From NCBI GenBank assembly GCA_019454045.1, contig SKCR01015064.1:24188-88187 (forward strand): a stretch of 64,000 nucleotides of DNA. The letters run 5' to 3'. The translations under genes and the position numbers were made by a program. This document shows, piece after piece, positions 2,668 to 56,862 of the stretch (positions within the stretch are counted from its first letter, which is position 1; each line of letters starts with the position of its first letter). This stretch comes from Zanthoxylum bungeanum (lineage: Eukaryota > Streptophyta > Magnoliopsida > Sapindales > Rutaceae). Under the pieces are notes generated by a model, which searched no databases, had not been told where the DNA came from, and saw only the letters and a list, made by a program, of their open reading frames with translations.

Positions 2668-2668
2668 A

Positions 2669-8755: not shown

Positions 8756-8811
8756 TTGAGCGACATGTACATAGTTCACGTGTTAGATGCTTGAGTGACT
8801 GGCTATAGGCC

Positions 8812-18148: not shown

Positions 18149-18654
18149 TTTTTATGTATTTCTTTCTCAACTCTGGATGCCTTCAAAAGTGCAATGACGG
18201 GCTGAATTTATAGTACCTGAAAATAATAGCACTAGTATCTTCCAGAGGACGTTTGTTTGCTAAACAACAAAATGAATCGTGAAAGGTCAAAAAGTCTGGA
18301 TCCTGTCTACGAAAATAAAGATAATTACAACAGAAAAGCGAATCAAAGCAATAATTAAGGCAACAGAATTGTGTACGCAATACGCCACTTGTTTGGTATA
18401 TAAATCCATTAGGATGCGTCTTAAGATTTCATTCTTTACTCAGCCATCGCTAATGAATTGGTTGCCAAACACCATTTCTTCTGTCTTAAATGCTCCGTTT
18501 GTGCTTTTCCCTACAAAACAACACACAAAATTAAAAAACTCTACAACATGTATACACAAAATATGAAAACATAAGTTACAACAAATTGCATGGGTTGCCT
18601 CCCTGCTAGCGCTAAATTTTTCATCTTCAGCCAGACGTGACTGAAATTCATCTA
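18149..18654 (-). other. E2n post-pol spacer and LOG leader
   Basis: Near 18591-18613 is the conserved TGGGTTGCCTCCCTG motif (GGGAGGCAACCCA in the element sense), also present after the integrase tail in E3 at 46979-47001 and, from memory, common in Athila-type elements. Closer to LOG, the text GGATCCAGAC...TTTTCAGGTACTATAAATTCA on the minus strand matches the LOG leader in E3. The finger ORF of E3 is absent here. Confidence 0.6.
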
Positions 18655-19908: not shown

Positions 19909-20019
19909 TTTTCAACCACCTGAAATAAAAGAAAGAAATAAAAATTACAGATAAAAATAAAGAAAATTAGATACAAGTAAATTGGATAGCTTCAAAATTA
20001 ATAACTCAAGAAAAATAAG

Positions 20020-20037
20020 TCCCCGGCAACGGCGCCA
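20020..20037 (-). other. E2n primer binding site, tRNA-Asp
   Basis: On the minus strand TGGCGCCGTTGCCGGGGA, an exact 18-base complement of the 3' end of plant tRNA-Asp including CCA. It lies 6 bp inside the 5' LTR and is typical of Athila-type gypsy elements. Confidence 0.92.
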
Positions 20038-20043
20038 AAAACT

Positions 20044-24263: not shown

Positions 24264-25110
24264 ATGGCTGGAAAGATTAGCGTTAGGGACATCATCATTG
24301 GCGATAATGTCTTTAACGGCTCCAATTTTCCATATTGGGAGATGAATCTCAGGATAGTCCTGGGAGCCGAGAAGTTACTCTATGTCATAGAGAAACCTCT
24401 CGGGCCGGAGCCCGGGGTTGAGCAAATAGTAGAGCATGAGCTTTGGAAGACTCATCGTGATGATAACTTCAGTGCTTAATCCGTCATACTTGCCGTAATA
24501 ACTCCTCAATTTCGTCGTCAGAACAAAGGATTGGATCCTTATAGTATGATGTTGAAATTGAAGGATCTTCATAGATCTAACCTTAGATCTCAGAAGTATG
24601 AATTGCGAAAGAAGCTCTTTTGCTGGAGTATGTCATAGGGTACATCTTTCGAGCACTACGTGTCGCAGATGATTGCTGACATCGAACAGCTAGGTCAATT
24701 GGGCATAACCTTCGAGGCCGAGACTTCTATAGATTTGATCTTACAGTCTCTGCCCGAATGTTGGGGCGGGTTCGTCATGAACTATAACATGATGAACCAA
24801 GGGAAAACTCTTGGAGAGTTATTGGCGATGCTGAAAAAAGAAGAGCCAAAGCTTTTGAAGGGAAAGAAGTGCGAGGCGCACCTTACTTCGACATCCTAGA
24901 AGGCCAAGGCTTGGTCGAAGGCTTCTGGAGGTTTGAAGAAAAGGGAGAAAAAGGGCAGGGCCAAATCATCAAAGTCTTCTGGGAAGACTAAGGATATATC
25001 CCAAGACGTCTGCCTACATTGTGGCAAACGGGGTCACTGGAAGCGTGACTACCGTGAGTACAAGGTGGAGTTGAAGGAAGTGAAGACGGGCAAGGCTCCG
25101 GCTTCATGTA
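24264..25110 (+). pseudogene. gag: E2 copia gag, broken
   Basis: The frame starts at ATG 24264 (MAGKISVRDIIIGDN) and stays in phase to beyond 25110, with stops at 24477, near 24639 and at 24897. The knuckle reads CLHCGKRGHWKRDY, so the last zinc ligand is Tyr (TGC to TAC). It aligns along its length with E1 gag. Confidence 0.9.
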
Positions 25111-26605
25111 TATTTGTTATAAACATGTCCACTACTGGTTTTAAAAATTGGATTTTTGATTATGGATGTGGTACTCACATCTGTACTGATGTGCATGATC
25201 TACTGATTAGCAGGAGACTGGCTTCAGATGAGATCGACCTACGAGTCGGAAACGGGACGAGAGTCGTTGTTTTGGCCGTTTGGACCTATGTTTTGTATCT
25301 ACCATTGAGGCTTTTAATTACAATAGGTGACTGTTATTTTATACCTAGTTTGAATAGGAACATCATCTCTGTATTTTGTTTAACCAGTTGCGGGTGTACC
25401 TTTGTATTCTGGAACACTAGGTTTTTTGTATATAAAGATAACATTTTGATATGTAAAGAAGATGCTAATAATGGTTTTTATATTTTGAATATAAATGAAT
25501 CTCAAACATATAACATGACAAACAAAAGCTCAAACTGAGTAAATCAGATGAGACTTATTTATGGCATTGTCATCTATGACACATTAACAAGACTCGTATA
25601 TCCACACTTTCGAAGAGTGGATACATGGACGGATTTGATCCTAAATCATATGATGTCTGTGAATCTTATTTATTAGGCAAAGTGCCTAAAACACCTTTCA
25701 GTGATAAGGGTGTAAGTGCCACTGAGCTGTTAGCCCTTGATCAGAGTGACGTATGTGGACCCATGTCTAGCTAGGCTAGAGGTGGTTATGAATACTTCGT
25801 AACCTTTATGGATGTTGCATCGCGTTATGGTTATGTGTATCTTATGAAACACAAGTTGGAAACTTTTGAGAAATTCAAAGAGTTTCGACACAAAGTAGAA
25901 AAACAGACTGGTAAAAGTATTAAAACATTGCGGTTGGACCGTGGTGGAAAATACTTGAGCAATGAGTTTCTCGATTACTTGAAAGAGTATGGTATTCTTT
26001 CACAGTGGACTCCTCCCGAAACACCTCAATTGAGTGGTGTGTCCGAACGGAGAAACCGAACTTTGTTGGACATGGTAAGGTTTATGAAGAGTCACACTGA
26101 GCTACCAATTTCCTTCACGTGATACACATTGAATAGTGCAATACTTATTTTGAATAAGGTTCCATCAAAGTCTGTTGGACAGACTCCATATGAAATATGG
26201 ACATGAAAGAAACCAAGTTTCTCATTCCCGAAGATTTAGGGATGTTGGGCATATATTAAACTTTTGGATTGTACCAAACTAGAACCCAAATCGGATAAGT
26301 GCATATTTGTAATTGGTTATCCTAGGGAAACCAAAGGATATTATTTCCACAACCCATAATAGAACAAAAATATTTGTTGCTCTCCATGCGATTTTCCTTA
26401 GAGGAATTCCTAAATGCAGTGGTAAGTGGGAGGAAAGTAAACTCGATGAAAATCGAAGTGATACTGTTCCTGGCACCGATCCCCACACGGATCACGAACA
26501 GTTCATCAGGGGTGAGACTGTTCCATAATCTTCTAATACATAAGAACCGCGTAGGTCAGAGTGAGTTAGAAAATAACCTAAGAGGTATGGGTTTCTGATC
26601 TCACC
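25111..26605 (+). pseudogene. pol: E2 copia protease and integrase, broken
   Basis: The protease catalytic triplet is DYG where DSG is expected. After a frameshift near 25538 the HHCC region ends CESY, as in E1. The integrase core in another frame (25808-26122) has LDRGGKYL, so the acidic residue of DRGGEY is Lys. GVSERRN is kept. Further stops and indels follow to 26605. Confidence 0.88.
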
Positions 26606-27990
26606 TCATGTAGATATTAATCTTACTGAGAATAATAAACCGGCTACGTATGAGGTAGCGATACAAGGTATCGAATCCGTTTTATGGCAAGGTGTCATGA
26701 AGTCCAAAATGGATTCCATGTATACGACCACGTTTGGACACTGGTTGATGTACCAGAAGGCATTGTGTCTATTGGTAGCAAATGAGTCTTCATGGTGAAG
26801 ATAGACATAGATGGCAACATAAAAACGAACAAGGCTTGGCTTGTAGCGAAAAGGTATCGTCATCAACATGGTGTTGATTACGATGATACATTTTACCCCT
26901 TTGCCATGATTAAATCCATTCGGATTATGCTTGCTAAAGCTGCATATTTCGATTATGACATATGGCAGATGGACATCAAAACCTCTTTCCTTAACCGTAA
27001 CCTTGTGGAGGATGTTTATATAAAACAGTCTGACGGTTTTGTCGTGCCAAAACATGCAAACAAGGTTTGCAAGTTAAATCGATCCATTTATGGATTGAAG
27101 TAAGCATTGCGTTCATGGAACCAATGTTTTGATGAGATCATATTACAATATGGTTTCATTCAAAACGATGATGATTCTTGTGTATATAAAAAGGTTAGTG
27201 GGAGCGCACTGACATTGATTGTCCTATACGTTGATGATGTATTGCTTCTTAGAAATGACATTCCCATAATAAAATCGATGAAAGCTTGGCTTTTATTAGA
27301 ATTCTCCATGAAATTCTTAGGAGAGGTAACCTTTATTCTAGGAATAAGGATCTATTGGGATAGATCTAAAAGTTTTTGGCACTCTCCAAGAACTCGTACA
27401 TTGATAAATATGTACACGACCTGGTGTCTCATATGCTTTGAGCATCTGCAGTCACTATCAGACCGATCTAGGTGACGGTCACTGGATTGATGTTAAGAAC
27501 ATCCTTTAGTATCTTAGATGCATTCTTAGTCTATGGAGAAGGAGAACTTGAGGTGACTGGGATCACCGATGCAAGTTTCCAAACCGATAAGGACGACTAT
27601 AAGTCACAATAAGGGTATATATTTTGTTTGAATAACAGAACAGTGAGCTGGAAATATTCCAAGCAAGATACTGTTGCCGATTCAACAATAAAAGTGGAAT
27701 ACATTGTTGTGGCTGAGGCAGCAAAAGATGCATTTTGGATCTATAAATTCCTAATTGGATTAGGAGTAGTTCTGTTAGCAGCTGAGCTGGGCTACAGCAC
27801 TGGCTAAGGAATTACGGTCTCATCAATGATCCAAGTATGTACTTCGATGGTTTTATCTGATTCATGAGATCGTATATCGTGGCGATATAAAGATCGAAAA
27901 AATCGTTTCAGATGATAACCTTGCATATCCGCTGACGAAAGCTATATCTCAACAAAAGTTTGAACGACCCGTACATAGTTCAGATGTTGG
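26606..27990 (+). pseudogene. pol: E2 copia reverse transcriptase and RNase H, broken
   Basis: RT blocks are recognisable at 26792-27475, with a TAA at 27101 (where Gln is expected in YGLKQ) and an intact YVDDVLLL. Compared with E1, about 170 bp is missing near 27410 between RT and the connection region. RNase H remnants (TDASF, Ala-Glu-rich EAEY-like region) extend to about 27790 with indels. Confidence 0.88.
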
Positions 27991-28015
27991 ACACTTGAGT
28001 GATTGGCTATAGGCC

Positions 28016-28026
28016 AAGTGGGAGAT
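28016..28026 (+). other. E2 polypurine tract
   Basis: AAGTGGGAGAT abuts the TGTTGG of the 3' LTR, identical to E1. Confidence 0.85.
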
Positions 28027-29946
28027 TGTTGGACAATTATGACCCATAGCATCACTATTTGTAAAACACATGGTGTTTTTGTACAAATTAACTATGTGAC
28101 AAAGGAAATTGCTCTTTTATCATTTTGTAATTGGATTACTTGGATATATAAATGATAAAAGTCCATATGATTAGTACCGGATTAATAAGATATGAGACAG
28201 TATTAATCCACGAAAGGTTTAATCATTAAATATCCCTAGTCGTAGTATTATCGAGACTGGACATCGATAATGCGGAATAGGCTAGTATTACACTTGTGCG
28301 CGTTATGAAAGCTTAACGACATAGTTCTCATATATTTAAGTATTGGATACTTATGCAAGTGTGATATGAGGTTCTGTTAGCCGTTGGACCGGGAACAGCT
28401 TCGCTCTGGATAGACCCCTCAGAATCTCATTGGTAGTATGACTATGTGTCTATGGGAATCTGAATCAGGGTAGGTGTATGTGGTCTTAACCTGAGACTTG
28501 CATCGCTAATACTTGCGACAACCAGTATACTTTGGTTTTGGTCGTTCAGAGTTTTAACAGGTTCTGTGTACGCCTCTTCTGGGTATACTAAGAATTGTAG
28601 TGTATTGGGTGTGATGTCAAGATGAAAGTATCACTTCAGTCATATGGAGATGATGATCACGCGGGGATACATAATTAGTACTCTTAAATGCTGCCGCTAT
28701 CGGGATAGTATGACTAGGTCATGATTATCCGATTACAGAGACTAGTTGCTAGTGATCCGATATATGCTTCGTACGGGACAGACAAAATTCCAGCCTTAGG
28801 CCTAGAATGTGACATCAGATACTGGATCGTAATACGTAATACTTATTATAGTACGCCTGATACAGATTATATATTCCTCGTTGAATATTTCTGGAGAATT
28901 GGGTAGGCATGGTGCTTTGCTAGAAGCCAACCATGTCTTGTAAATCGGTAAGAACGTGGTACTGGGTACGCACGTGTTCGGATAGTCTGATGACCGTATT
29001 TACTGCCAACATATCCAGGGATCTCTTGGGTCGCTTCCCAAAGATTCACCGATGATATTTGACTTGAACAAAATTAATCTGGGATTAATTATGAGAGAGA
29101 AAATTAATCTGTGATTAATCACGGTAAGAATTAATCTGAGATTAATTATCAGAGAGAGAATTAATCTGGGATTAATTCGTGAAGAATAGAGAACGCGATT
29201 AATTTGGAATTAATCGGCAAAGTAAATTTAATAGTTAAATTGGATTTCACTATTTAATATATTTAATTGGGCTATAATAATATATCTTATATATTAATTG
29301 AAATTGGATTTCAATACAGAATTAAAATTGGATTTTAATTCAAGCAAACGAATTAATTAGGAATTAATTCGTAAGCGACTTTCGTAATAATTTTACGAGG
29401 TATTATTATTTAATTAAATTGGATTTAATTATTTAGCGACGAAAAATTCGTTTAATCGGATTAAACGAACCCGGGCCCAAAGTGTGTTGTGTAAGCCAAC
29501 CAAATTTGGAATTTGAAAGTGGTGGGACCCACTTTACTTACATCACTTGTCACTATTTTTGATGGATGTAGTTGGCTAATTTAATGTGATTCATTTTACA
29601 TACAACACACACACCTTTTGAAAGTCAACTTTTGTATTTAAGTTTTTGGAAATCCAAAATACACTATTCACTCTCTCCTTCCTACACACATTGCCGTGAC
29701 TTCCTCTCTCCCAAAAGGAAATTTTATTGCAAAATTTCTTGCAAGCTAGCACTTGAGGAGTAAATCAAGGTGATAGGGAAACTCACCCTTGAGTTTGGAA
29801 TTCGATTTTAAAGCTTGGAGCTTCCATACATCAAAGAAAAGTTTTGAACTTCAACCATTCAATGTAAGTTTTTTCCGTAATCTTTCTTGAATTATTCACA
29901 CACAAATCAATGTTTAGAGATCATTGGCATGTCTAGGACACTAAAA
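28027..29946 (+). repeat. E2 3' LTR
   Basis: 1920 bp, matching 12302-14251, with terminal CTAAAA (expected CTAACA) followed by the ATACA target copy. The GATTAAT array at about 29072-29215 is shorter than in the 5' LTR. Confidence 0.94.
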
Positions 29947-29951
29947 ATACA

Positions 29952-42095: not shown

Positions 42096-42384
42096 AGAAT
42101 TAAACATATCATAATGCACATCTCACCGGCCTGGTTTCGGGGAAGCCTGGTCTTACATTATTTACACAATCTATGTCCGGCGAGGCTTAGTGCAAGTCTG
42201 ACCAGATATTCTTCGTACGGGCATAAGCATAAATAGTGCATGAATATGTGTAACTAGCAGTAATAATAAAATAGAAATAAAATTACTATAGAGCCGAGCA
42301 ATTAGTAATAAAACAGTAAGTAAACAAGATAACAGTAAATAAACAACCATAATTAGATAAAAACAGGGTATATGTCTCATCGGC
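42096..42384. other. Spacer left of E3
   Basis: No gene. It contains CCGGCCTGGTTTCGGGGAAGCC and similar text that resumes in diverged form after E3 at 51857 (CCCGGCTTCGGAGAAGCC). It ends in TCGGC, the probable target site of E3. Confidence 0.5.
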
Positions 42385-42619
42385 TGATGAGTGGTAAAAC
42401 TATCACTATTTCCCACTCATTTAACTTAATATCTTGTATAGTTTCTTGAGTTTTGTGAATATTTTGATGTGTTTTGTGTTATTTTGTAGATAAATAAAGT
42501 TTCAGGACATTCTGGAGGTGATTTGGAGCAAAACAGTGAAATTTGGTGAAATTTGGCAAAAAGGGTATTTTGGTAATTTTGGGCATCTCGACACTGAAAC
42601 CCTTGGCATCCCGACCTCT

Positions 42620-42800
42620 AACGTGCATCGGAGACTGCTAATATGCACCATGTCAACAAGTCAAAGTTTCCAAGTTTGACTTTGCTAACGTGCACCATGC
42701 CACGTGTCATCATCACAAGCAATCTGCTAACGTGCACCGCATGCCACGTGTCAAAAATTCAACGAGCCGTTTTTTTTAGCCACCATGCCACGTGTCGAAA
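42620..42800 (+). promoter_or_regulatory. G-box/ABRE array in E3 5' LTR U3
   Basis: Three GCCACGTGTC motifs (near 42709, 42743 and 42787) alternate with CTAACGTGCACC motifs, 85-260 bp upstream of the TATA at 42881. The 3' LTR repeats this at about 50365-50545. It corresponds to the longer array of E2n. Confidence 0.72.
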
Positions 42801-42880
42801 ATTCAGCGATTCAAAAAAATAAAATAAAAAAATAAAAAAATAATCAGAAAAATAATAATAAAGAATTGAATTTTTTTGCC

Positions 42881-42888
42881 TATAAATT
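42881..42888 (+). promoter_or_regulatory. TATA box of E3 5' LTR
   Basis: TATAAATT in GCCTATAAATTGAG, the same context as in E2n. The 3' LTR has TATAAATG at 50611-50618. Confidence 0.65.
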
Positions 42889-43147
42889 GAGTTTGATTTC
42901 TTAAGTTTCAAATGTACCTCATCCTCTGAAATCCTTATAAATAAATTGAGAGTTCTCTTCTTTAGTTTCTTTTATTCAGTTTTATTTACGTTTGTAGTAG
43001 TATTTCTCTTCTATAAATAGTAGTTTTCATTCATCCATGAGGAACTAACTTCTCCATGCTGAGGTAAAAAAGGTAATTCTTTTACTTTTGCTATTTAGAT
43101 TAATCTCTTTTAAAATATAAACTAATTAAAACCTAAATTAATAAAGG

Positions 43148-43310
43148 ATACCGCCATTCCAGACGGTTGGTTATTCAATTTAAATTGGTTAAACCTGACT
43201 TAATGAGGATACCGTCATACTTGACGGTTAGTTTAAGTTTATATTTTTGTTCCGCCTTATGGCTGGTATATTTGAATTTGACTTAATCAGGATACCGCCA
43301 TTCCGGACGG
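43148..43310 (+). repeat. ACCGCC/CGGT hairpin units in E3 LTR
   Basis: Three units: ACCGCCATTCCAGACGGT, ACCGTCATACTTGACGGT and ACCGCCATTCCGGACGGT, plus a CCGCCTTATGGCTGG form. The second forms a perfect 6-bp stem (ACCGTC/GACGGT). They are counterparts of the ACCGCCTATATGGCTGGT units of E2n. Confidence 0.7.
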
Positions 43311-44186
43311 TTGATTTAAAATATAACAAGATTATATATATTATTTTATGGGAGATATCTAAATAGTGAATAGTAGAAGTTAATTCATTTTACCTTAGCA
43401 TTTCTTTTTATTACTTTTCAGTAATTTCATTTTATGTCTTTTAAGTTTATATCAGCTTTAGCTATGTGTTGTAACTAAATTAAATATCTGGGGTTGTGAT
43501 AAAATCTAATATCACCGGTTTTAAAAAGGATTAGATTATAGTTTGGGTAATTAAAGAGTTATTTGTTGAGTCATAATCTTAATGCCTTTTTATTAACTGA
43601 TCACTAATAAAATTGAATAGATAAACCTAAAATGAACTAGACATAGGGACTTTAATTTTAAAGACCTTATACTCAACAACCCACGATCTTCTTTAAGGAT
43701 AGATAAACCTTTAATAGATTTCCTTACAGGATAGGAATATACCTGTTGGGCGGGGGTAATCATAATTGGAATTCAAACTTAATGAATCTAGGTAATTTGG
43801 TTGACATAGACATATGATTCAATTGAATTAAACTAGGTATTTGTAAATGACCATCGGAAGAGGCTTTTACATAATTTAATATTCCAGATTAATAAATCAA
43901 TATTTACCCAACTATGATTTAACTACTTCATCTTTTAATTAATATTGGAAGAATTCACAACCCTAGATAGTTTTAATTCTCATTAATCTACTCTCAATTT
44001 CTTTTACTTGTTTTAAATTTAGAAACATCATTATCCTTTCAAACAACTTGTTAGATATTAGTAATCACTTGACCTCATAAAATTAATAGAATAGATATTA
44101 AGTCCTCGTGGGATCGATACTTTTTATACTACTTGAACGATACGTTCGCTTGCGTTATAAGTGTGTGATTACGCCGGTCAAGTTTT

Positions 44187-44204
44187 TGGCGCCGTTGCCG
44201 GGGA
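44187..44204 (+). other. E3 primer binding site, tRNA-Asp
   Basis: TGGCGCCGTTGCCGGGGA, 18 of 18 to the plant tRNA-Asp 3' end, six bases after the LTR. Confidence 0.92.
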
Positions 44205-44313
44205 CTTCTTTATCTTTTACTTTTAGTTTAGGGGTTAGATACGTTACTTGTATCTAATTTTATTTTTACTAATTGTTTTCGTTTTATTGTGTTTCAGGTT
44301 ATCAGAATCTTAA

Positions 44314-45660
44314 TGAGACGAACCAGAAGCTTTGAACTACGACCGCTTGACCCAGAAATTGAAAGAACCATCAGACATTGAGAAGGGAAAGGAGACAAGG
44401 CCAAGAAGCAATTGTTAACATGGAACCTGAACCTTTGGAGATTGCACCACCAATTCCCATTCGAGACAGAACCATTCCGGTGGTTGATGGCCTCATTTCA
44501 TGTATTGTACTTCCTCCTTTACCAGCGAATGCAGGTGACATCAAAACTTGCATTCAGATGATTCAGCAATCAGTTCAGTTTGGGGGGAAGGCAACTGAAG
44601 ATCCTAATGCCCACATCAGCAACTTCCTGGAAGTTTGCGGTACTTTCAATTACAACCGAGAAGCTGAAGAAGCAATGCGACTGCATGTTTTTCCATACTC
44701 CTTGAAGGACAGAGCTAAAGCTTGGCTACATTCACTTCTACCAGGTTCCATTACAACTTGGAATACTTTAGCCACCAAATTTCTTGCAAAGTACTTTCCA
44801 CCAGCCAGAACTGGAAAACTGAGGAATGACATCACATCCTTTGTACAACAAGAATCAAAAACTCTCTACGAAGCTTGGGAAAGGTACAAAGATTTGCTCC
44901 GGAAATGTCCTCACCATGAGATTCCAAAATGGCTTCAAGTCCAAACATTCTATAATGGACTTTCTGGAATAATGAGAACCACAATTGATGCTGCTGTTGG
45001 AGGAGCATTGATGGAAAAATTAGAAGAACAAGCCTGGGACCTAATCGAAGAAATGGCCAACAACAATTCATTGTGGCCAACAGAAAGGAGCATGATTCAA
45101 CGAATTGCTGGAATTTATGAAGTTGGAGCCAATACAGCAGTCAGTGCCAAACTGGATCAGATATGCAAATTCATGGAACTCTCGGCAGGAAAAGCAACAT
45201 TGGATCCACAAATTCTCCATATGGAGGAGCAAAAGAATTAAACCAACTTGAAGAAACGGTGAATTATGTCAACAATTTCAACAGACAGGGGAATAATCCA
45301 TATTCCAACACCTACAATCCAGGGTGGAGGAATCATCCCAATTTCTCATGGAGCAACAATTCAGGACAAAAGAACTATCCACCACCAGGATTCCAACAGC
45401 AAAACCAGGAGTTTGAAAAAGATCCAGAAATGAAAGATTGGCTTGTAGAGATGTTCAAAAAGCAACAAGCATCATATGATGCTATGTTTCAAAGCCAATC
45501 TGCTTCCATTAAAGCAATGGAGAATCAAATTGGGCAACTGGCCAATGCTCAGAGTTACAGACCGCCAAGTACCCTTTCTAGCACACAACAGAACCAAATC
45601 AAGGAACAGGGAGAAAGGAGCATGTCATGCCATCATGTTAAAAAGCGGTACTGAAATCAA
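44314..45660 (+). pseudogene. gag: E3 Athila-type gag, frameshifted
   Basis: The natural start is probably the ATG at 44314 (MRRTRSFELRP). A frameshift near 44380 leads into the long frame 44378-45241 with the retrotransposon gag domain (AKAWLHSLLPGSITTWNTL, FYNGLSG). A second shift near 45200 enters 45163-45654, with the Asn-rich segment GNNPYSNTYNPGWRNHPNF and IGQLANAQ, both typical of Athila gag as I recall it. A third shift near 45620 leads to the protease frame. Confidence 0.88.
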
Positions 45661-46583
45661 CAAAGATGTTGGAGCCAAAATAGCAGCTGAGGAAGTTCCA
45701 AAAGAAGCAGAGCAACAGATGGAGGAAAAAGAAGCAAAGGAAAAAGAACAGATTACTCCACCTCCACATTTTCCTCAGCGTCTTCAGAAAAACAAACTGG
45801 ACAAGCAGTTTCCTCGATTCCTAGAGTTTTTCAAAAAGCTGCACTTCAACATCCCATTTGCAGAAGCCTTGGAACAAATGCCCAGCTATGTCAAATTCAT
45901 GGAAGACATTCTTTCACGAAAATGGAGATTGGGAGATTACGAGACAGTAGCATTGACGGAAGAATGTAGTGCCATCATTCAGAGGAAACTTCCCCCTAAG
46001 TTGAAAGATCCTGGCAGTTTCACCATTCCTTGCAATATAGGAGAACATAACTTTGGTAAGGCTTATGTGATTTAGGTGCAAGTGTTAACTTGATGCTTTT
46101 TTTTCTATTTTCAGGAAACTGCAGATTGGAGAAACAATGCCCACCTCAGTCCTCTACAACTTGCTGATAGAACGCTCTATTTCCAAAAGGCGTTGTTGAG
46201 AATGTGTTGGATAAGGTTGACAAATTCATTTTCCCAGCAGATTTTATTGTCCTTGATATGGAGGAAGACGCAGACGTGCCAATCATCCTCGGAAGACCAT
46301 TCTTGGCTACAGGTCGAACCATTATTGATGTACAAAAGGAGAATTAACCATGAGGGTACAGGACCAGGAAGTAACATTCAATGTTTTCAAGGCTATGAAT
46401 TTCCCAGATGATGAAAAGAAAGAGGAATGTTTCAGACTTGATGTGATACACAGTACCATTCAGAACTCCAATGCAATGCAAATTTCTACTGACAAACTTA
46501 AAACATGTCAATTGCCTGTGCCTGAAGATAAAGCGTCTTTTGTACTGAAAGAGCCAATTCTTGAACTACAAGCAACAGAATAG
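45661..46583 (+). pseudogene. pol: E3 Athila-type protease region, broken
   Basis: The linker (LDKQFPRFLEFFKKLHFNI, LEQMPSYVKFMEDIL) and KLPPKLKDPGSFTIPC lead to the protease active site CDLGASVNLM at about 46065, reached only after a frameshift near 46060. The C-terminal half (VPIILGRPFLATGRTIID, about 46277-46340) is in two further frames. It ends near 46583, where reverse transcriptase would normally follow. Confidence 0.85.
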
Positions 46584-46940
46584 AAAGAGATCCACCAGCT
46601 CAACGAATTGGAGGAATTTCACAATCAGCATTTTGAGGATGCCAAATTGTACAAAGAAAAGGCAAAGAAAAGACATGATGAGAAATTAGTGCGCATATAA
46701 CTGGAACCAGGGCAGAAGGTACTGTTAAACAAATCAAGGGTGAAATTCTTCCCATGGAAGCCAAAATCACGGTGGTCAGGTCCATTTATGATCACCAAGG
46801 TTTTACCAGATAGAGCCGTTGAGATACATGATCCTGACTTCAACAAAACTTTCAAGGTTAAAAATAGGCGTGTTAAGCACTACTGGAGAGAATCGTTGGA
46901 TCGACAAAAAGAAAGTGTCACACTTTCAGATCCAGCATAA
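46584..46940 (+). pseudogene. pol: E3 integrase C-terminal tail; RT, RNase H and integrase core deleted
   Basis: From the TAG at about 46581 the sequence jumps directly to the end of integrase (LNELEEFHNQHFEDAKLYKEK, KRHDEKLV, then KFFPWKPKSRWSGPFMITKV and HYWRESLD). About 3 kb of pol that would lie between protease and this tail in a complete Athila element is absent. One stop (TAA near 46698) interrupts the tail. Confidence 0.85.
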
Positions 46941-46978
46941 CATTCAGGCAGTCACGTCTAGCTGACGACTTAAAACTT

Positions 46979-47001
46979 AGCGCTCGCAGGGAGGCAACCC
47001 A
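46979..47001 (+). other. Conserved post-pol motif GGGAGGCAACCCA
   Basis: AGCGCT, four bases, then GGGAGGCAACCCA; it matches the E2n motif at 18591-18613 on the minus strand. Its role is unknown; it marks the end of pol and the start of the extra-gene region in both elements. Confidence 0.7.
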
Positions 47002-47078
47002 TGCAATTTGTGTATATATTGTGATTTGATATGATTTAATTTTGTGTGTTTAGTTTTTGCAGATTAAGACATTTCAAG

Positions 47079-47627
47079 ATGAAAGAAGCTCTCGCAAGTC
47101 TTCACATGCAATTTCCTTCTCTCCCTCAAAAATCTCTGATGAAAGTTTACAAAGCTCGCTTGGAACGAATGAGATTACTGAAGATCAAAGGTATTCCTAC
47201 TGATATTTGTTGGGTAATTGAAGCACGAGTCCGTCTAGCAGGTGAGTATTCTAAGACTTGTAGTTCTTATTTACATGGTTTTAGAAGAAGCACATATACA
47301 AAGAAACGTAGAGCTAAGAAAATGGGTGTATGTTACAAATGTGCGCGTTGGAATTGCAATACTCGTTGTCGTTCTTTAGGAATGGTGTCTGATAATCGTG
47401 AAGATAAAATTAAATTCATTAGGGATGGCTTGAGTAAGGAGTCTGTAGATGATATATCTTCGACTCTTGAAATGCATCCCAGTGGATATGTTCATATAGC
47501 CATTCATAAATTACACACACAATTCCAAAAAGAAAGACAACAGTTAAGTCTTGAAAATCTGACTCAAAAAGACCATGTTTGCCAATTTATAAGAAAATTG
47601 GATGGGAAGCTTGTTCCTGACGCATAG
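47079..47627 (+). CDS. Cysteine-finger basic protein, 182 aa, possible viral-type nucleic-acid-binding protein
   Basis: Open from the first ATG at 47079; the frame also extends upstream to 47046 without another ATG. Residues 20-60 are helical and basic, with a Cys at 44. Residues 75-82 (KKRRAKKM) form a basic patch directly before a finger CX2CX4CX3C (C85, C88, C93, C97). A conserved-looking HPSGY follows at 133-137, then a charged, helical C-terminus. A basic patch before a small Cys-rich finger and a later HPxG is the layout of the cysteine-rich nucleic-acid-binding proteins of carlaviruses and relatives, some of which suppress RNA silencing. This is resemblance of pattern, not proven homology. 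It sits where Athila elements carry an env-like gene. TTTAGTTTTTGCAG ends 16 bases before the ATG and could serve as a splice acceptor. E4 keeps a trace of its 3' end. Confidence 0.7.
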   Translation: MKEALASLHMQFPSLPQKSLMKVYKARLERMRLLKIKGIPTDICWVIEARVRLAGEYSKTCSSYLHGFRRSTYTKKRRAKKMGVCYKCARWNCNTRCRSLGMVSDNREDKIKFIRDGLSKESVDDISSTLEMHPSGYVHIAIHKLHTQFQKERQQLSLENLTQKDHVCQFIRKLDGKLVPDA

Positions 47628-47863
47628 ATGTCAATCAAGCCGCTACTTTTCTTGTACATATTATATTTATTTGTCTTTTTCTAATAATTGATTTGTTTTG
47701 TTGTTTTCTCTGATAGGATCCAGACCTTTTTGACTATCACGATTATTTTACTATTTTGCTACTAATCGTCATTTGGAAGATACTTGTGCTATTTTTACTC
47801 ACCCTTTTCAGGTACTATAAATTCAACTTATTATTGCACTTTTGAAGACATCCAGAGTAAAAC
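47628..47863 (+). other. E3 leader between finger ORF and LOG
   Basis: Contains two candidate splice acceptors, TTTTCTCTGATAG and CACCCTTTTCAG, the latter about 50 bases upstream of the LOG ATG. The blocks GGATCCAGAC and TTTTCAGGTACTATAAATTCA are conserved in E2n, which suggests that they matter for expression. Confidence 0.5.
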
Positions 47864-48517
47864 ATGGAAGCCACTTTAAGAAGACGAGTTGAAAACATCT
47901 GTGTGTTTTGTGGTAGTAGTGTTGGTACTAAACCACGATACGTAGAAGCAGCACACGAATTGGGTCGAGTCTTAGCTGTAAGAAATATGCACTTAGTATA
48001 TGGCGGAGGCAATCTTGGACTAATGGGGATCGTTTCAAAGGCCGTACAGGAAGGAGGCAGTCATGTTTTGGGAATCATCCCAAAACCCTTGGCAGAAGCA
48101 AATCTTATTGAATCATCAAACAGAGAGGAACTGATCGTGCCAGGTATGTCTGAACGACTAGTGGAAATGATTAACCGTTCTGATGCTTTCATTGCTTTGC
48201 CAGGTGGCTTGGGTACATTGGAGGAAATTTTTATAGTACTATATTGGGCGAACCTGAACATACACCAGAAACCAATTGGGTTGTTTAACGTTGATGGATT
48301 TTATGATTTTCTTTGTGTGTTTCTTGATGATGCCCGGAGAAATGGGTTCGTGTCAAAACCTTTGAAAGAACTACTCTTTAGTGCCAGAACTGCTCCGGAT
48401 CTAATTGACCAACTCTTAGCATATGAACCACTAGTTGACCCTATCATTTCAAAGATAAAATGGTCCGAAGATGATCGTGGTAAGAAGCGTCGAATAAATC
48501 TGGATCTTAACCTTTAA
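47864..48517 (+). CDS. LOG-like: LOG-family cytokinin riboside 5'-monophosphate phosphoribohydrolase, intact, inside a retrotransposon
   Basis: Complete 217-residue ORF from ATG to TAA, the usual size of plant LOG enzymes, which convert cytokinin nucleotides to active free bases in one step. Rossmann-like N-terminus ICVFCGSS (12-19) and [10 protein letters not shown] (46-55); Arg98 and Glu101 in SERLVEM; nucleotide-binding signature PGGLGTLEE at 113-121 with Glu at 120-121. By family knowledge these are the residues needed for phosphoribohydrolase activity. The C-terminus is unusual: a basic GKKRR (206-210) and then LDLNL (213-217), which has the form of an EAR repression motif. There are no introns. 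It lies in the element's sense, 236 bp after the finger ORF. A close host homologue as the source is likely; which one cannot be told here. Confidence 0.93.
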   Translation: MEATLRRRVENICVFCGSSVGTKPRYVEAAHELGRVLAVRNMHLVYGGGNLGLMGIVSKAVQEGGSHVLGIIPKPLAEANLIESSNREELIVPGMSERLVEMINRSDAFIALPGGLGTLEEIFIVLYWANLNIHQKPIGLFNVDGFYDFLCVFLDDARRNGFVSKPLKELLFSARTAPDLIDQLLAYEPLVDPIISKIKWSEDDRGKKRRINLDLNL

Positions 48518-49451
48518 TTTTCTTGTAGTAATTCAGCCAACCAGGTACCATCTTCTAAACTCTTCTTCTACTGTTTAAGACATTGGGGACAATGTCTCAT
48601 TTAGGTTTGGGGGTGAGGAATAGTTAATAGTATCTTGTTTTTATTGTTTTTTATTTTTAGTCCAAAATATTTCGAAAAATACAAAAAAAAATTAAAAAAA
48701 ATAAAATAAATTTCAAAAACAAAGGCATATTTAAAGCTAGGTGATGGTTTGGTGTCTTCCTTCACTCACTACCTCTCTATAAGGAAAAGCTGTGAAGGCA
48801 CCTAGATAATCATTCACCAGTAGCTTGTTGTGATAGACTAGTTTGGAGGACTCGTTGTTTATTCCTGTCACCAAGCGATAAGAGCCTAAGAGGCTTGGGT
48901 ACTTAAGTGAAGCCTCGCTCCCCCCTCCCTCTGGGGAATCTACAACAGGAATTCCATTCGACAGTTAGTCACACAACCATGACCAGTAGAAGTTATTTCT
49001 TTATGTTTATGGTTTTTATGTTGACTAAAAAGGTGAAATTGGTAAGAGATAGTTGTGTAAGGAATTCTCACTCCTGATACGTATTTCAAACCCATTTTTT
49101 CGAAACAATTTATTTTTTTTTAATTCCTTTTGAATTATTTAATTTGTAAATTCTCCATAAAACTGACTAAAATAGATCTTCATATGCTCAGTTGGCAGGT
49201 ATTATCAATATACATAGTAACATACCGACATGAGATAAAATTGAAAAGATTGTAATATTCAGTACTACAGTTTAATTGGAGAAGCGTCTCAAAAAGTGAT
49301 GGAATAAAAAAAAATTACATCTGAGATCCGAGTTATTAAGTCTGTAAGGGTGTTTTAACACCTAGTGCTCTAAAACCAATTGGTTTGGGAGTCATTGGCC
49401 CAAAGCTCGCTACATGGATCAAAAATGATGAATATATATATATATAATAAT

Positions 49452-49484
<33 letters not shown>

Positions 49485-50112
49485 CTGAAGTCTGAGTAAT
49501 TAAGTCCGTAGGGGTGTCTTAACACCTGTGTCCTAAAGCCATCTAGTTCGGAGCTACCGACCCAAAGCTCGCTACATAGATGGAAGGTATTGTATATAAA
49601 TAAAAAAAAATCAAAGAGAAAAATCAGAAAATTTATTCCATTACTACAAAAGATGTGAACTTTGATAAAACTTTAGGACAAAAATATTACTCTCTTATCA
49701 ACTGCACTTATGACTGTTGTGGGCAAAAAATGAGTTGAATAAAACTTTGTTAGTTGTGTATATGAAGAATGATAAAAATAATCGGAGAATTTACTTATTC
49801 AGTAATTTAGAATGAAACAAAACAACTAGTAAACTTGGAGTAGAAGTTTCACCTAATTAGTCACAACTTCTTTATTCTCTTTTCTCTTATCTTTTTGCTT
49901 TTGTGTGCATTAGTTTCACTACCTTTTTACTTTTATAAAAGGTTTATGGGTATCATTGCTATAAACCCTCAGGAGACTACAACTCGTCCACTAGGGACAC
50001 CTAGGGGTTTAAAGGCTTGTTGCATATGCTAAATGCAATCCTGATCCCTACGAAAGTGGCTTAGTTAAATTTTATTATGTTATTTTATTTTGCTCGAGGA
50101 CTAGCAAAATGT
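48518..50112 (+). other. E3 non-coding region between LOG and 3' LTR
   Basis: No gene. It begins with TTTAATTTTCTTGTAG...GACATTGGGGACAATG, conserved in E2n and E4, and includes TTTAGGTTTGGGGGTG as a duplicate of the later polypurine tract near 48601. Two stem-loop blocks lie at 49321-49420 and 49483-49582 around an (AT)n stretch (about 49434-49482). Confidence 0.7.
49321..49582 (+). repeat. Duplicated stem-loop block in E3
   Basis: Two copies of AAGTCYGTAAGGGTGT-YTTA-ACACCT followed by CTAAARCCA...GGCCCAAAGCTCGCTACAT. GGTGT and ACACC can pair around a four-base loop. Equivalents are at 16768-16991 (E2n, minus) and 54797-55043 (E4). Confidence 0.75.
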
Positions 50113-50113
50113 T

Positions 50114-50126
50114 AGGTTTGGGGGTG
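50114..50126 (+). other. E3 polypurine tract
   Basis: AGGTTTGGGGGTG abuts TGATGAGTGG of the 3' LTR. Confidence 0.85.
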
Positions 50127-51853
50127 TGATGAGTGGTAAAACTATCACTATTTCCCACTCATTTAACTTAATATTTTGTATAGTTTCTTGAGTTTTGTGA
50201 ATATTTTGATGTGTTTTGTGTTATTTTGTAGATAAATAAATTTTCAGGACATTCTGGAGGTGATTTGGAGCACAAAATTGTGAAATTTGGTGAAATTTGG
50301 CAAAAAGGGTATTTTGGTAATTTTGGGGATCTCGACACCAAAACCCTTGGCATCCCGACCTCTAACGTGCATCGGAGACTGGTAATATGCACCAGGTCAA
50401 CAAGTCAAAGTTTCCAAGTTTGACTTTGCTAACGTGCACCATGCCACGTGTCATCATCACAAGCAATCTGCTAACGTGCACCGCATGCCACGTGTCAAAA
50501 ATTCAACGAGCCGTTTTTTTTAGCCACCATGCCACGTGTCAAAAATTCAGCGATTCAAAAAAATAAAAAAATAATCATAAAAATAATAATAAAGAATTGA
50601 TTTTTTTTGATATAAATGAGTTTGATCTTTTAAGTTTCAAATGTACCTCATCCTCTGAAATCCTTATAAATAAATTGAGAGTTCTCTTCTTTAGTTTCTT
50701 TTATTCAGTTTTATTTACGTTTGTAGTAGTAATTCTCTTCTATAAATAGTAGTTTTCATTCATCCATGAGGAGTTAACTTCTCCATGCTGAGGTAAAAAA
50801 GTAATTCTTTTACTTTTGCTATTTAATTAATCTCCCTTAAAATATAAAATAATTAAAACCTGAATTAATAAAGGATACCGCCATTCCGGACGGTTGGTTA
50901 TTCAATTTAAATTGGTTAAACCTAACTTAATGAGGATACCGCCATACTGGACGGTTGGTTTAAGTTTATATTTCTGTTCCGCCTTATGGCTGGTATATTT
51001 GAATTTGACTTAATCAGGATACCGCCATTCCGGACGGTTGATTTAAAATATCACAAGATTATATATATTATTTTATGGGAGATATCTAAATAGTGAATAG
51101 TAGAAGTTAATTCCTTTTACCTTAGCATTTCTTTTTATTACTTTTCAGTAATTTCATTTTATGTCTTTTAAGTTTATATCAGCTTTAGCTATGTGTTGTA
51201 ACTAAATAAATATCTAGGGTTGTGATAAAATCTAATATCACCGGTTTTAAAAAGGATTAGATTATAGTTTGGGTAATTAAAGAGTTATTTGTTGAGTTAT
51301 AATCTTAATGCCTTTCTATTAACTGATCACTAATAAAATTGAATAGATAAACCTAAAATGAACTAGACATAGGGACTTTAAGTTTAAAGACCTTATACTC
51401 AACAACCCACGATCTTCTTTAAGGATAGATAAACCTTTAATAGATTTCCTTACATGATAGGAATATACCTGTTGGGCGGGGGTAATCATAATTGGAATTC
51501 AAACTTAATGAATCTAGGTAATTTGGTTGACATAGACATATGATTCCATTGAATTAAACTAGGTATTTGTAAATGACCATCGGAAGAGGCTTTTACATAA
51601 TTTAGTATTCCAGATTAATAAATCAATATTTACCCAACTATGATTTAACTACTTCATCTTTTAATTAATATTGGAAGAATTCACAACCATAGATAGTTTT
51701 AATTCTCATTAATCTACTCTCAAAAAATTATTAGTAATCACTTGACCTCATAAAATTAATAGAATAGATATTAAGTCCTCATGGGATCGATACTTTTTAT
51801 ACTACTTGAACGATACATGCGCTTGCGTTATACGTGTGTGATTACGCCGGTCA
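50127..51853 (+). repeat. E3 3' LTR
   Basis: 1727 bp, ends CCGGTCA, paired with 42385-44180. It contains the G-box array at 50365-50545, TATA at 50611-50618 and hairpin units at about 50875-51045. It is shorter than the 5' LTR by a loss of about 50 bp near 51722. Confidence 0.95.
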
Positions 51854-52393
51854 TCGACCCGGCTTCGGAGAAGCCTAACCGGATATTCCTTATGTGATAC
51901 ATGTTTTTCTAGACTTAATTCAAGTGTGGCCGAATATTATTCATGAAAGATAGGTGTAAATAGTTCAGGAACCTGCATAGATACCAAACTATAGAAGTAA
52001 CACTAGCATAACAGTGATAAAATAACTATGGGACATAGATAAAAATAGTAAAATAACAATTACACTAGAATATGGTGCATGTCTCATAGGCTTAACTTCG
52101 GATAAGCTGAGTCGGTTATGTTTCACACTAAGGATGTTCGGCCGGAAATACCATGTGTTTGGCTAGACATTCCATGTGAACAAGACAAAGACATGTATTA
52201 CGACGGTAAATGGAAGAAATAATAAAATAATAATAAAAGAGGGATTTATAAAACCAGTATTTCGTATAATTATTTCCCAGTGGTATGTGGAGTTGTATCC
52301 CGAGAACAAACCACATTACCGTCTATTCGGAATCGGTTATGTAATTTATGTACGGGTTTCCATCATATACACCAAAGGGAAACAATAATAACT
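51854..52393. other. Spacer between E3 and E4 with repeat B copy 2
   Basis: No gene. Continuous with 42096-42384 before E3 inserted. Repeat B copy 2 is at 52277-52382. GTTCGGCCGGAA near 52136 is a relative of the palindromes found right of E4. It ends with the TAACT target copy. Confidence 0.5.
52277..52382. repeat. Dispersed repeat B, copy 2
   Basis: Similar to 35536-35640 over about 105 bp. Many of the differences between copies fall in third positions of the plus-strand frame reading WYVELYPE. Confidence 0.6.
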
Positions 52394-52815
52394 CGGTGGA
52401 CACTGAAAAGTGCACATTTATTAAAAGAAAAATTAATCATTTTACACTTGTAGTTTCATTAATCCTCTTAATTTAGCACATTTGTGAAATAACAATTAAA
52501 TTTAAGTTTTGTAAATTTTTATTGTGTATTTTTATTTATTGTGTAGGTTAAATACTACTTCAGAAGCTCAACAGGGAAAATGAATATAAGATCTGAATTT
52601 CAGGACCCAGAAAACTCAAAAAGAGCGTGACAGCTAGATTCAAATCGGATTTGGAAAACATTCACTGTGTTTAGATTAACGACAAAATGAGCTTATGATG
52701 TATTTAGTTACACATGTATTGTATTATTATAATAATAATATATATAATATATATAAAATATATTTAGGAGATCCCACCGAGATTTTATATATATAATATT
52801 TTGGAAGTCCCACTG

Positions 52816-52819
<4 letters not shown>

Positions 52820-52875
<56 letters not shown>
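52820..52875. repeat. (AT)n microsatellite
   Basis: About 56 bp of perfect AT dinucleotides inside the E4 5' LTR. Confidence 0.95.
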
Positions 52876-52878
<3 letters not shown>

Positions 52879-52982
52879 CAATGCATTATTGCATTGCTGG
52901 ACAACAATGCAATAATTCATTGATGGATTGCAAATGCAATTGCTTTATGCAATTGCATTTGAAATTTGGTGCCGAGGCCTCC

Positions 52983-52990
52983 TATAAAAA
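52983..52990 (+). promoter_or_regulatory. TATA box of E4 LTR
   Basis: CCTATAAAAAGAGG; the 3' LTR has TATAAAAG at 55987-55994. No G-box array is seen upstream, unlike E3 and E2n. Confidence 0.65.
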
Positions 52991-53855
52991 GAGGTGCTCA
53001 ACACTTCAGTGAGGGGGGAGAAAATGGAGAGCTCCCCTCCAGTCAAGATGCGTTATTTCATTTTCTCATTTCGAGAGATTTGGGGTAAATGCCCTATGTG
53101 TTTTATTTTATTTTATTTTATTTCTATTGTAATTTCTTTTTCTTTTATTAATAAAATTATGAGCGTTTTTATTTATATATTGTTCTGTAAATTTGTATCC
53201 TGTTAGGGTAAATGGTGAAGCTTTTGTTATGAAAATATATGTGATTTTTATTTATATTATATTTTATAAATTTTGATAATTTTACAAATAAAATTCATAC
53301 TTTTTGTAGTTTATTGAGGACTCTTGACTAGCTATACATAGTCCCCGATTGGCATAAATAATACTGGAACCCCATAAATGAGAGAGTATGGACTATCAAA
53401 GATATGGATTAATTATTGACAAACTTTATTACCGCCTATATGACTGGTTTTATATATTTGACATAATTGAGTACCTAACTGGATTTGTTATAGATAAATG
53501 ACATCACCGTCTTTATGGCTGATTTTATATGTTTTGGCATATTTAGTACCTTGTCATAACTAATTATCGACATGACAGATCACATGTGTTGGTATAATTA
53601 ATACATGATAATTATGAAATAAATTGATTGGGAAATAATTATAATTTATATTTTATAAAAAGTAAAAATTATTTTATATTTGAAATATCAAGAGTGGATC
53701 CCTTGACCATATTATTTTATTTTAATAGTTGAATTATTATTTTATCTTATTAAATTTATTCCATGTGGATCGAATCCGAACTTAACGGGTTATTTTATTA
53801 CTTTGACACTCTTGTACTTGGAAGTAAAGAACCACTTTGTGAGTGTGTCAATTTT

Positions 53856-53873
53856 TTGGCACCGTTATCGGGG
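53856..53873 (+). other. E4 primer binding site, tRNA-Asp, mutated
   Basis: TGGCACCGTTATCGGGGA differs at three positions from the tRNA-Asp complement in E3 (G to A at one, GC to AT at the others), a sign of age. It starts about six bases after the 5' LTR. Confidence 0.75.
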
Positions 53874-54037
53874 AATAAAATTTAATAGATAGAGTAATAA
53901 TTTAAAATTATTGTATTTTTTTCACTTTTGTGTTGCTTTGTGTGTATTAAAAAAAAATTTAATTTTTTTTATTATTTTGTGTATTTTGTAAAAAAAAAAA
54001 AAAAAACAACAACAACAACACTTTGCAGAACTATAGT

Positions 54038-54110
54038 CTCGAGAATCTGACTTTAAAAATTGTCGATTTATAAGAAAATTGGATGAGAAGCATATCCTCG
54101 AACCATAAAA
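54038..54110 (+). pseudogene. Vestige of the finger-protein ORF 3' end in E4
   Basis: AGTCTCGAGAATCTGACT and ATTTATAAGAAAATTGGATG match the last codons of the E3 finger ORF (from about 47553 to 47615) with a small deletion between them. Everything upstream of this in the ORF is missing. Confidence 0.75.
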
Positions 54111-54214
54111 GATGTTCAAGCTGTTAATGGACGTAAAACCAGAGGAAGATGTGAGCCACAATTACAACTACATTTCAATTTACTATTTTGATTTTTTTTT
54201 TAAACTATAACCTT

Positions 54215-54275
54215 TCTTTTTGGTAGCAATGTTGTAGATTCAATTGACAATATTACACGAATTAGGTGATGTCTT
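54215..54275 (+). pseudogene. Probable vestige of LOG N-terminus in E4
   Basis: TTTTTGGTAGCAATGTTG then ACACGAATTAGGTGATGTCTT resembles E3 LOG codons around TTTTGTGGTAGTAGTGTTG and ACACGAATTGGGTCGAGTCTT in the same order. The rest of LOG is deleted up to the shared GACATTGGGG tail. The match is short, so this is tentative. Confidence 0.5.
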
Positions 54276-54296
54276 TTAAACTTTAATTCTTCTTAT

Positions 54297-55350
54297 TCAG
54301 ACATTGGGGAACATGACTCAATTTGGTTGGGGGGGGGGGGGGAAGATAGTTGACTAGAATGCTTTTTTTTTTTTTTTTAAGAAAAAAATTATTAATTCGT
54401 GTGTAAAAAAATAAAAATAAAAAATTATTTTTGTTTTTATGTTATTTCTTAAGAAATTATTTTTGTCCATTTCCTTTTAAATTATTTAAATTTGTGAATT
54501 CTGTATAAAATTATTTAAATTTGATTTTTATATACTCATTTGACAAGTATTATCAACGTACATGGTAACACATGATCATGGGTTGTAAGTGAAAATTTTG
54601 TAATATTCAGTTCTCTAGTTTGTTAGAGGCAGCACCTAAAAGCAATGGAGTTTGTGTTTTTATTTCAAAAAAACTAACCAAGTTTGTACTTAGTAAACGA
54701 ACATCTTGCCTCAGCAAGCAGTGATTATTCGCATAAAACGGTAGAGCTTGAGTTTATAAAAAAGAAAAAAAAGTGTGAATAAGTTTGATTTCGTAACCAC
54801 TCTAACTCGAACAATTAAGTCCGTAAGAGTGTATTAACACTTAATGCCCTAAGGCTAACTGGTCTGAGGGTTACTGGCCCAAAGCTCCTTAAATGGGTTA
54901 AAGAGAAAGCTTAAGAAAATCATACGTTTTTCTTTTTATCATATGAGATCTGAGAAATTAGGTCCGTAAGGGTGTCTTAACACATAGTGCTCTAAAGCCA
55001 ACTGGTTTGGGAGTCACTAGCCCAAAGCTTGTTACAAGGGTTAAGATGTATTATTATTAAAAAAAATTATTTTTGTATATAAATAATATGTCATTGCCAA
55101 AAGGTGTAAATACTGATAGAATTTTAGGACAAAAATATTATTTTCTTTTCAATAAGACCTGTAAATATTATAGGTACAATGAATTGATTTATAATTTTGT
55201 CTTATGTGTGTATGGAAGAATGGTAAAAAGTGCATGAGAATTTGCTTATTTGATAATTTAGAAAGAAATAAAACAATTACTAACTTGGATAAAAAAAAAA
55301 TTTCTTTTTAGTTTTCGCTTAAATTACTAGGGGACTAGTAATAAGCTAGT
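54297..55350 (+). other. E4 non-coding region with stem-loop blocks
   Basis: No gene. It starts with the shared GACATTGGGG tail, then a run of 14 G (54329-54342) and poly-T. Stem-loop blocks are at 54797-54900 and 54950-55043; in the first the stem is AGTGT/ACACT instead of GGTGT/ACACC. Confidence 0.65.
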
Positions 55351-55359
55351 TGAGGGGTG
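55351..55359 (+). other. E4 polypurine tract
   Basis: TGAGGGGTG abuts TGATGAAC of the 3' LTR. Confidence 0.7.

Positions 55360-56862
<1,503 letters not shown>

Follow-up and report, generated by a model that had tools for sequence, protein, structure and literature searches.

An Athila-type retrotransposon family of Zanthoxylum bungeanum carries a LOG gene at the env position

Results

An intact LOG gene lies inside an LTR element

The window, a stretch of 64,000 nucleotides, covers positions 24188–88187 of its contig in the 3.96 Gb assembly of Zanthoxylum bungeanum. Within it, an LTR element that we call E3 spans 42385–51853 and carries a LOG gene in the orientation of the element, downstream of a pol remnant and upstream of the 3′ LTR. 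The features of E3 are:

42380–42384, no strand: putative TSD, TCGGC; the partner at 51854–51858 is TCGAC, a match at 4/5 positions
42385–44180, plus strand: 5′ LTR, starting TGATGAG and ending GGTCA
44187–44204, plus strand: primer-binding-site-like (PBS-like) sequence TGGCGCCGTTGCCGGGGA, following the 5′ LTR
44378–45241, plus strand: gag ORF, an open piece of 287 aa with a Retrotrans_gag match and shifted frames after it
46500–46937, plus strand: C-terminal integrase remnant
47079–47627, plus strand: intact NABP-like ORF of 182 aa with the pattern C-x2-C-x4-C-x3-C, between the pol remnant and LOG
47809–47823, plus strand: CAG acceptor-like site and TATAAATT sequence upstream of LOG, read directly and also found in E2
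47864–48517, plus strand: LOG ORF, ATG to TAA, 217 aa, intact and intronless
48482–48514, plus strand: C-terminal tail of LOG, codons 207–217, KKRRINLDLNL (a basic run and LxLxL)
50127–51853, plus strand: 3′ LTR, with purine-rich TTAGGTTTGGGGG just before it

The LOG ORF matches the Pfam family Lysine_decarbox with an E-value of 1.9e-35. The closest solved structure by sequence is that of Arabidopsis At2g37210 (2a33, E 6.3e-59). A fold model of the protein (pLDDT 83, pTM 0.80) was compared with the PDB using Foldseek, and the top matches are plant and bacterial LOGs, with 2a33 at an E-value of 7.6e-22. Direct reading of the protein locates R98 and PGGLGTLEE (residues 113–121), which correspond to R98 and PGGxGTxEE, the residues that we take to be catalytic in LOG enzymes. 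By these features, the E3 LOG is probably a type-I cytokinin-activating enzyme. The CAG acceptor-like site and TATAAATT upstream of the gene may have a role in splicing or as a promoter.

The two LTRs of E3 are 97.1% identical over 1725 aligned bases (K2P 0.030). If 1.3e-8 substitutions accrue per site each year, this divergence corresponds to an age of about 1.1 million years. The PBS-like sequence, which we assign to tRNA-Asp, is also present in E2 and, together with their neighbouring pieces, in three other loci of the assembly (L036, L044 and L046). The integrase remnant was located by tblastn with the integrase of a related contig, L001 (E 3.4e-28). This query matches in its last part only, and the remaining pol of E3 was not found.

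An earlier annotation of this DNA from its letters alone (the first-pass annotation) had described a complete, intronless LOG ORF of 217 codons with R98 and PGGLGTLEE, placed in the env position and in the orientation of an Athila-type element. ORF reading, Pfam and the structure matches bear out the ORF, the residues are exactly where they had been put, and the LTR-bounded E3 confirms the setting. It had also described gag and pol as frameshifted. This holds for gag, in which a 287-codon open frame is followed by shifts, and falls short for pol, which is mostly missing. Two features had been overlooked: the intact ORF at 47079–47627 between the pol remnant and LOG, and the C-terminal basic/LxLxL tail of the LOG protein.

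E2, a second LTR element of the window (14274–22004, minus strand), holds another LOG copy; its features, and a further element, are:

14269–14273 and 22005–22009: TSD of E2, CTAAA/CTAAA, perfect
14274–16198, minus strand: E2 3′ LTR, 97.2% identical to the E2 5′ LTR
17496–18148, minus strand: second LOG copy, with a broken reading frame
20044–22004, minus strand: E2 5′ LTR, used in the LTR comparison with the 3′ LTR
52432–56858, plus strand: a further element, E4, with LTRs at about 52432–53846 and 55406–56858, a 3′ region akin to theirs and, from 54032, the end of an NABP-like ORF

Three open frames of 122–134 codons occupy 18658–19911 on the minus strand of E2, at the place expected for gag and pol; no Pfam family exceeds its cut-off in these ORFs. 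No LOG match was found in E4. Elsewhere in the window, repeated stretches with copia-type genes are present at 742–10765, where RVT_2, integrase and GAG-pre-integrase domains were detected, and at 22361–29948.

The LOG gene recurs in the same element context across the host assembly

A LOG family search of the host assembly, beginning from 47331 loose candidates, gives at least 150 scored places, of which 3/150 have an internal stop reported. Because some places look like haplotype duplicates, 150 cannot be read directly as the number of copies. LOG lies at almost equal offset in the contig pairs C2154/C13046 and C29015/C41298, and L029 and L030 give identical matches. Haplotypes may be unpurged in the assembly, inflating the copy counts.

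We sampled 20 of the 150 places, 10 kb each, approximately evenly down the list and avoiding contig ends. In all 20, a match to the 3′ region of E3 begins within 40 bases after LOG; identity to E3 is 77–90% over long pieces in most loci and lower in L046. A match to E3 downstream of LOG is also present in 8/8 places that were checked further, two of which are among the 20. The NABP-like ORF is matched in 15/20 loci, eight of the 20 having an open frame of 175–200 codons, and the integrase query in 12/20, nearly over its whole length in five. Direct repeats surround LOG within 10 kb in 13 loci, and LTRs become visible in three more (L036, L044 and L046) once neighbouring pieces are added. A near-full-length LOG frame is found in 19 of the 20, a proportion biased by the sample, which consists of top HMM scorers and is not random. 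The frame in L052 is shorter, 189 aa. In L037, two extra LOG-matching stretches and LTR-like repeats within the 10 kb form head-to-tail repeats of the LOG-bearing element, as from unequal recombination.

One locus preserves the layout of the full element. L046, joined with the upstream piece L053, has a TSD (TATCT/TATCT), LTRs that are 97.5–98.7% identical, a PBS, and open frames for gag, pol, NABP-like and LOG of 484, 906, 182 and 217 aa, respectively. The domain order in the pol ORF is RVT_1, RNase H, integrase. A full element thus has its genes in the order gag-pol-NABP-like-LOG. E3 is a related copy with a deletion in pol, in which the NABP-like and LOG frames are still open.

The first-pass annotation had pictured LOG as captured once, by an element now in decay, and had proposed a count of LTR-flanked copies. 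Instead, LOG recurs in at least 150 scored matches, with LTR or direct-repeat flanks in 16/20 sampled loci and an element context in all 20. Given this recurrence and an open-frame copy with a perfect TSD, we regard LOG as a resident gene of an Athila-type Ty3/gypsy family, located at the env position and probably maintained by selection acting on the element.

These data make it virtually impossible that the gene is an ordinary host LOG gene around which retrotransposons have inserted, or an assembly artefact. The two copies in the window lie in elements with TSDs, one perfect and one matching at 4/5 positions; the 20/20 sampled host loci share the element context; and the LOG is intronless. 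Furthermore, 98/120 listed E3-type homologs have source labels from ENA or JGI, which we equate with genomic or metagenomic assemblies, compared with 0/120 listed canonical LOGs. We reject this explanation on the basis of the element copies in the window and in the host assembly.

The neighbouring ORF resembles flexivirus nucleic-acid-binding proteins

The ORF that precedes LOG has four near-invariant cysteines beside a basic stretch, and a CAG acceptor-like site lies just 5′ of it at 47060–47062. We found 320 homologs at an E-value of 1 or better. Sources among the best 120, which were listed, include Xanthoceras, Populus, Acer, Orobanche and Rhamnella, and PF01623 is precomputed for the listed rows, as read from the table. 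The window copy scores below the cut-offs of PF05515 and PF01623 (21.6 bits vs 23 and 17.6 vs 20.9, respectively). One or the other family exceeds its cut-off in 6/7 relatives scanned (all but P0178), and also in L001 and L046. Compared with viral fold models (BFVD), the fold model of the protein, itself weak, gives a best E-value of 0.06, with no significant match. Named plant-virus proteins make up 19 of the top 21 matches, the other two being unnamed, and most of the 19 are called RNA silencing suppressor or nucleic-acid-/RNA-binding protein. We take these 19 to be flexivirus proteins, 17 from betaflexiviruses and 2 from alphaflexiviruses.

Because the Pfam scores are below cut-off, the fold model is weak and the fold matches are not significant, we label the ORF NABP-like and do not assign it to the family. 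Its sequence resembles those of flexivirus nucleic-acid-binding or silencing-suppressor proteins. The basic stretch and the cysteine cluster are shared with the flexivirus (mostly betaflexivirus) NABPs of PF05515 and PF01623, to which the Pfam matches in its relatives and the viral neighbours in the fold search also point, whereas the length of 182 aa, the low similarity, the retrotransposon setting and the lack of significance of the fold matches set it apart. No NABP-like match was confirmed in IMG/VR.

Among the listed homologs, a LOG (P0060) and an NABP-like protein (P0146) both come from JGI with a longest contig of 4511 bases; judging from the tables, they probably share one contig. Among GTDB contigs, one plant-like contig, L001, was found. 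Its positions 1–3330 are Athila-type, with an integrase followed by an NABP-like ORF and no LOG. L001 belongs to a MAG labelled Candidatus Nomurabacteria and is a probable contamination of that GTDB genome. Between the matched flanks, L001 is about 0.7 kb shorter than E3, indicating that LOG was either inserted in the E3 line or lost from the L001 type. As E4 and L001 both have the NABP-like region without LOG, the gene is not essential to every relative.

The LOG gene is under purifying selection

Comparison of the E3 and E2 LOG copies gives a dN of 0.044, a dS of 0.187 and a dN/dS of 0.23. The two copies differ by 20 amino-acid changes, compared with 31 expected from random placement of the same substitutions, and 1/5000 simulations was as low (0.0002). 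For a set of 19 of the 20 sampled host loci plus E3, the median dN/dS over 190 pairs is 0.22 (range 0.09–1.21); this sample was drawn from top HMM matches and is biased toward conserved copies, as its dN/dS may be, whereas the E3/E2 pair was not so drawn. In the same 20 sequences, MSERL and PGGLGTLEE are kept in 20/20, and PGGxGTxEE is present in 102/120 listed homologs, a list that includes fragments. The LOG protein and its catalytic motifs are therefore under purifying selection. For the NABP-like gene, dN/dS between the window copy and L001 is 0.27. The Pfam E-value, the 150 scored host places and the dN/dS rule out that the observation arose by chance.

We asked whether LOG could be a passenger, a cDNA captured once that hitch-hikes without gain to the element. 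The loss of most of pol from E3, the broken LOG of E2 and the NABP-like regions without LOG in E4 and L001 are compatible with such a history. The dN/dS of 0.22–0.23 disfavours it, and the length, motifs and tail of the protein are conserved across the clade down to about 50% identity. In addition, five sampled loci (L033, L038, L042, L048 and L052), which had been selected for having LOG, retain it although none of the queries for gag, integrase and NABP-like finds a match there. We consider a passenger gene very unlikely.

E3-type LOGs form a clade in which most members have a basic/LxLxL tail

The tree contains 76 rows: 44 of 120 listed LOG homologs, 29 of 120 canonical LOGs, E3 and two bacterial fragments. 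The homologs were limited to lengths of 170–330 and to at most 88% likeness. The E3-type clade (45 rows) lies on one side of a branch with support of 99/97 and is present in 98% of 200 bootstrap trees; the canonical LOGs (29 rows) lie on one side of a branch with support of 97/94, also in 98% of 200 bootstrap trees. The rows are best matches to E3 or to a LOG3/LOG8 profile, so that other plant LOG subfamilies may be absent and the split may appear over-clean. The E3 LOG is 39–47% identical to seven aligned ordinary plant LOGs and 50–86% identical to 27 aligned clade members. Two Populus LOGs, P0038 and P0040, appear in the homolog list with the same tail; the tree, which was dereplicated at 88%, includes close relatives such as P0036. 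The element context of LOG was seen directly for copies of the present assembly, and the intronless ORFs suggest a similar context for the clade members of other plants.

A single-protein scan found no LOG relatives in IMG/VR. An alignment scan of IMG/VR returned 23 contigs (L002–L024) with LOG-like matches of 28–55% identity, several short and several near the whole protein. We judged these to be phage-type LOGs and rejected them as relatives of the element genes. LOG-like matches in plasmid records are all below 60% identity.

The C-terminal tail distinguishes most of the clade. LxLxL occurs within the last 14 residues of 91/120 homologs (the best 120 of 7847) and in 0/120 canonical plant LOGs (the best 120 of 7997); among listed homologs of at least 200 aa, the count is 84/104. 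Across 20 aligned rows, L213 and L215 never change and L217 differs in a single row, while positions 202–206 vary. The exact LxLxL is kept in 13/20 sampled host copies and absent from 7/20. One subclade (P0008, P0012, P0013, P0018, P0030 and P0034) ends in IDLNR. In the early-branching P0046 and P0091 the basic run is not followed by LxLxL, which suggests that the leucines were added later. Four LOG-clade proteins of Xanthoceras sorbifolium (P0009, P0014, P0031 and P0091) have no LxLxL tail, and three of the four are apparent partial duplications of the LOG domain. P0031 and P0091 are rows of the tree. These proteins may be degraded copies of the element, or host genes from close to where the clade arose.

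The EAR motif is given as LxLxL in the available parts of two studies (PMC6479872, PMC7446885). The LDLNL end of LOG fits this motif of EAR repressors and, as a sequence, is EAR-like. We infer that the tail docks on TOPLESS/TPR corepressors. A C-terminal LxLxL is shared with the effector HaRxL21, for which the same part of PMC7446885 demonstrates TOPLESS binding, whereas here the motif alone was read. Ten LxLxL-bearing effectors in the yeast two-hybrid experiment described there did not bind TPL, indicating that LxLxL by itself is insufficient for TPL binding.

The LOG fold could be kept for a role other than that of a cytokinin-activating enzyme: as a carrier, a stable dimer that displays the tail, or as a sensor that binds AMP-like nucleotides. 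The tail leucines L213 and L215 are as constant across the 20 aligned rows as catalytic residues, and the E3 protein is closer to its clade (50–86%) than to ordinary plant LOGs (39–47%). On the other hand, R98, PGGxGT and E121 are kept, with MSERL and PGGLGTLEE in all of the 19 sampled host copies and E3, and PGGxGTxEE in most listed homologs. We consider a carrier or sensor unlikely and favour an enzyme.

Relation to known elements and proteins

The Athila label of the E3 family is partly our assumption, based on gag, the PBS and the env-position ORFs. As in Athila-type Ty3/gypsy elements, the family has gag, an RT-RNase H-integrase order, a PBS and a 3′ ORF region. The order of gag, then pol with RT, RNase H and integrase, is found in L046; only gag and the integrase end are found in E3. 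The env-position ORFs, NABP-like and LOG, differ from those of usual Athila-type elements. According to the available text of PMC6317226, an additional (archaeal-type) RNase H marks Tat elements. In the L046 pol ORF (906 aa), no RNase H family beyond the RT-linked ones was found, with profiles that did not include a dedicated archaeal-type one. The Athila ORF-1 domain PF03078 was not found in the ORFs scanned; the same text reports it in 16% of Athila elements, so that most are without it.

The E3 LOG shares its fold, R98 and PGGxGTxEE with Arabidopsis LOG3 (At2g37210, 2a33; 47% identity, P0242) and LOG8 (At5g11950, 1ydh; 39%, P0241), both of which belong to the other clade and lack the basic/LxLxL tail.

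The first-pass annotation knew of no plant retrotransposon with a LOG cargo. Such cases have been published: Alvarado-Marchena et al. 2022 (PMC9289625) describe consensus LTR retrotransposons with a YgdH/LOG domain from Citrus sinensis, C. clementina and Populus trichocarpa, and find themselves in line with Steinbauerova et al. 2011. The cargo itself is therefore not new. Like E3, the Citrus and Populus elements are plant LTR retrotransposons with a LOG-type domain, and the Populus proteins P0038 and P0040 have the E3-type tail. The available part of that study, which used a different assembly, is silent on whether the elements belong to Athila, on a partner of NABP-like type, on a basic/LxLxL tail and on selection. 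Among the matches listed in the literature searched, it was the only paper on retrotransposons to contain LONELY GUY or YgdH; none paired lysine decarboxylase with LTR elements, and carlavirus did not appear among those for NABP with retrotransposons. Cytokinin and lysine decarboxylase are absent from the available main text of PMC7264820 and PMC6317226. The latter, in its available part, set a minimum of 250 codons for the extra ORFs that it counted, a threshold that would miss both the LOG and the NABP-like ORFs. In the literature covered here, we found no report of the NABP-like/LOG pair or of the tail.

A proposed role for the env-position genes

Based on these observations, we propose that LOG is a standing accessory gene whose product works together with that of its neighbour. 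An LTR-driven, probably spliced RNA of the element would produce a type-I LOG enzyme, which, in cells that express the element, would convert the cytokinin nucleotide into the active hormone. The hormone would favour dividing cells, such as those of the meristem or germ-line precursors, where new copies get inherited. The tail would take LOG to the nucleus and dock on TOPLESS-type corepressors, altering host transcription in the manner of EAR-bearing pathogen effectors. The NABP-like protein would act against RNA silencing, and the two genes would form a small host-manipulation module. We hold this account as a whole, accessory gene, enzyme, docking tail and anti-silencing neighbour, with moderate confidence.

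A bolder version is that E3 represents an endogenous-retrovirus-like Athila-type lineage of eudicots, in which two genes took the place of env, one for a silencing suppressor of flexivirus type and the other for a cytokinin-activating enzyme that enters the nucleus and recruits TOPLESS; the element would be much like a carrier of pathogen effectors. If this were true, the element would raise cytokinin and rewire transcription in the very cells in which it transposes. We put this version forward tentatively and find it possible, although rather doubtful.

Plant retrotransposons are mostly seen as gag-pol machines with extra ORFs of no known function. Here, an extra ORF can be recognised as encoding a predicted hormone-activating enzyme; it evolves under purifying selection within a repeated family, and its lineage-specific tail points to a candidate partner. 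These properties make the role of accessory ORFs in plant LTR elements testable by standard assays. Plant LOG gene counts may also include transposon genes: the Populus entries annotated LOGL10 (P0038, P0047 and P0070), known here from proteins and not from an element context, have the same tail as the E3 LOG.
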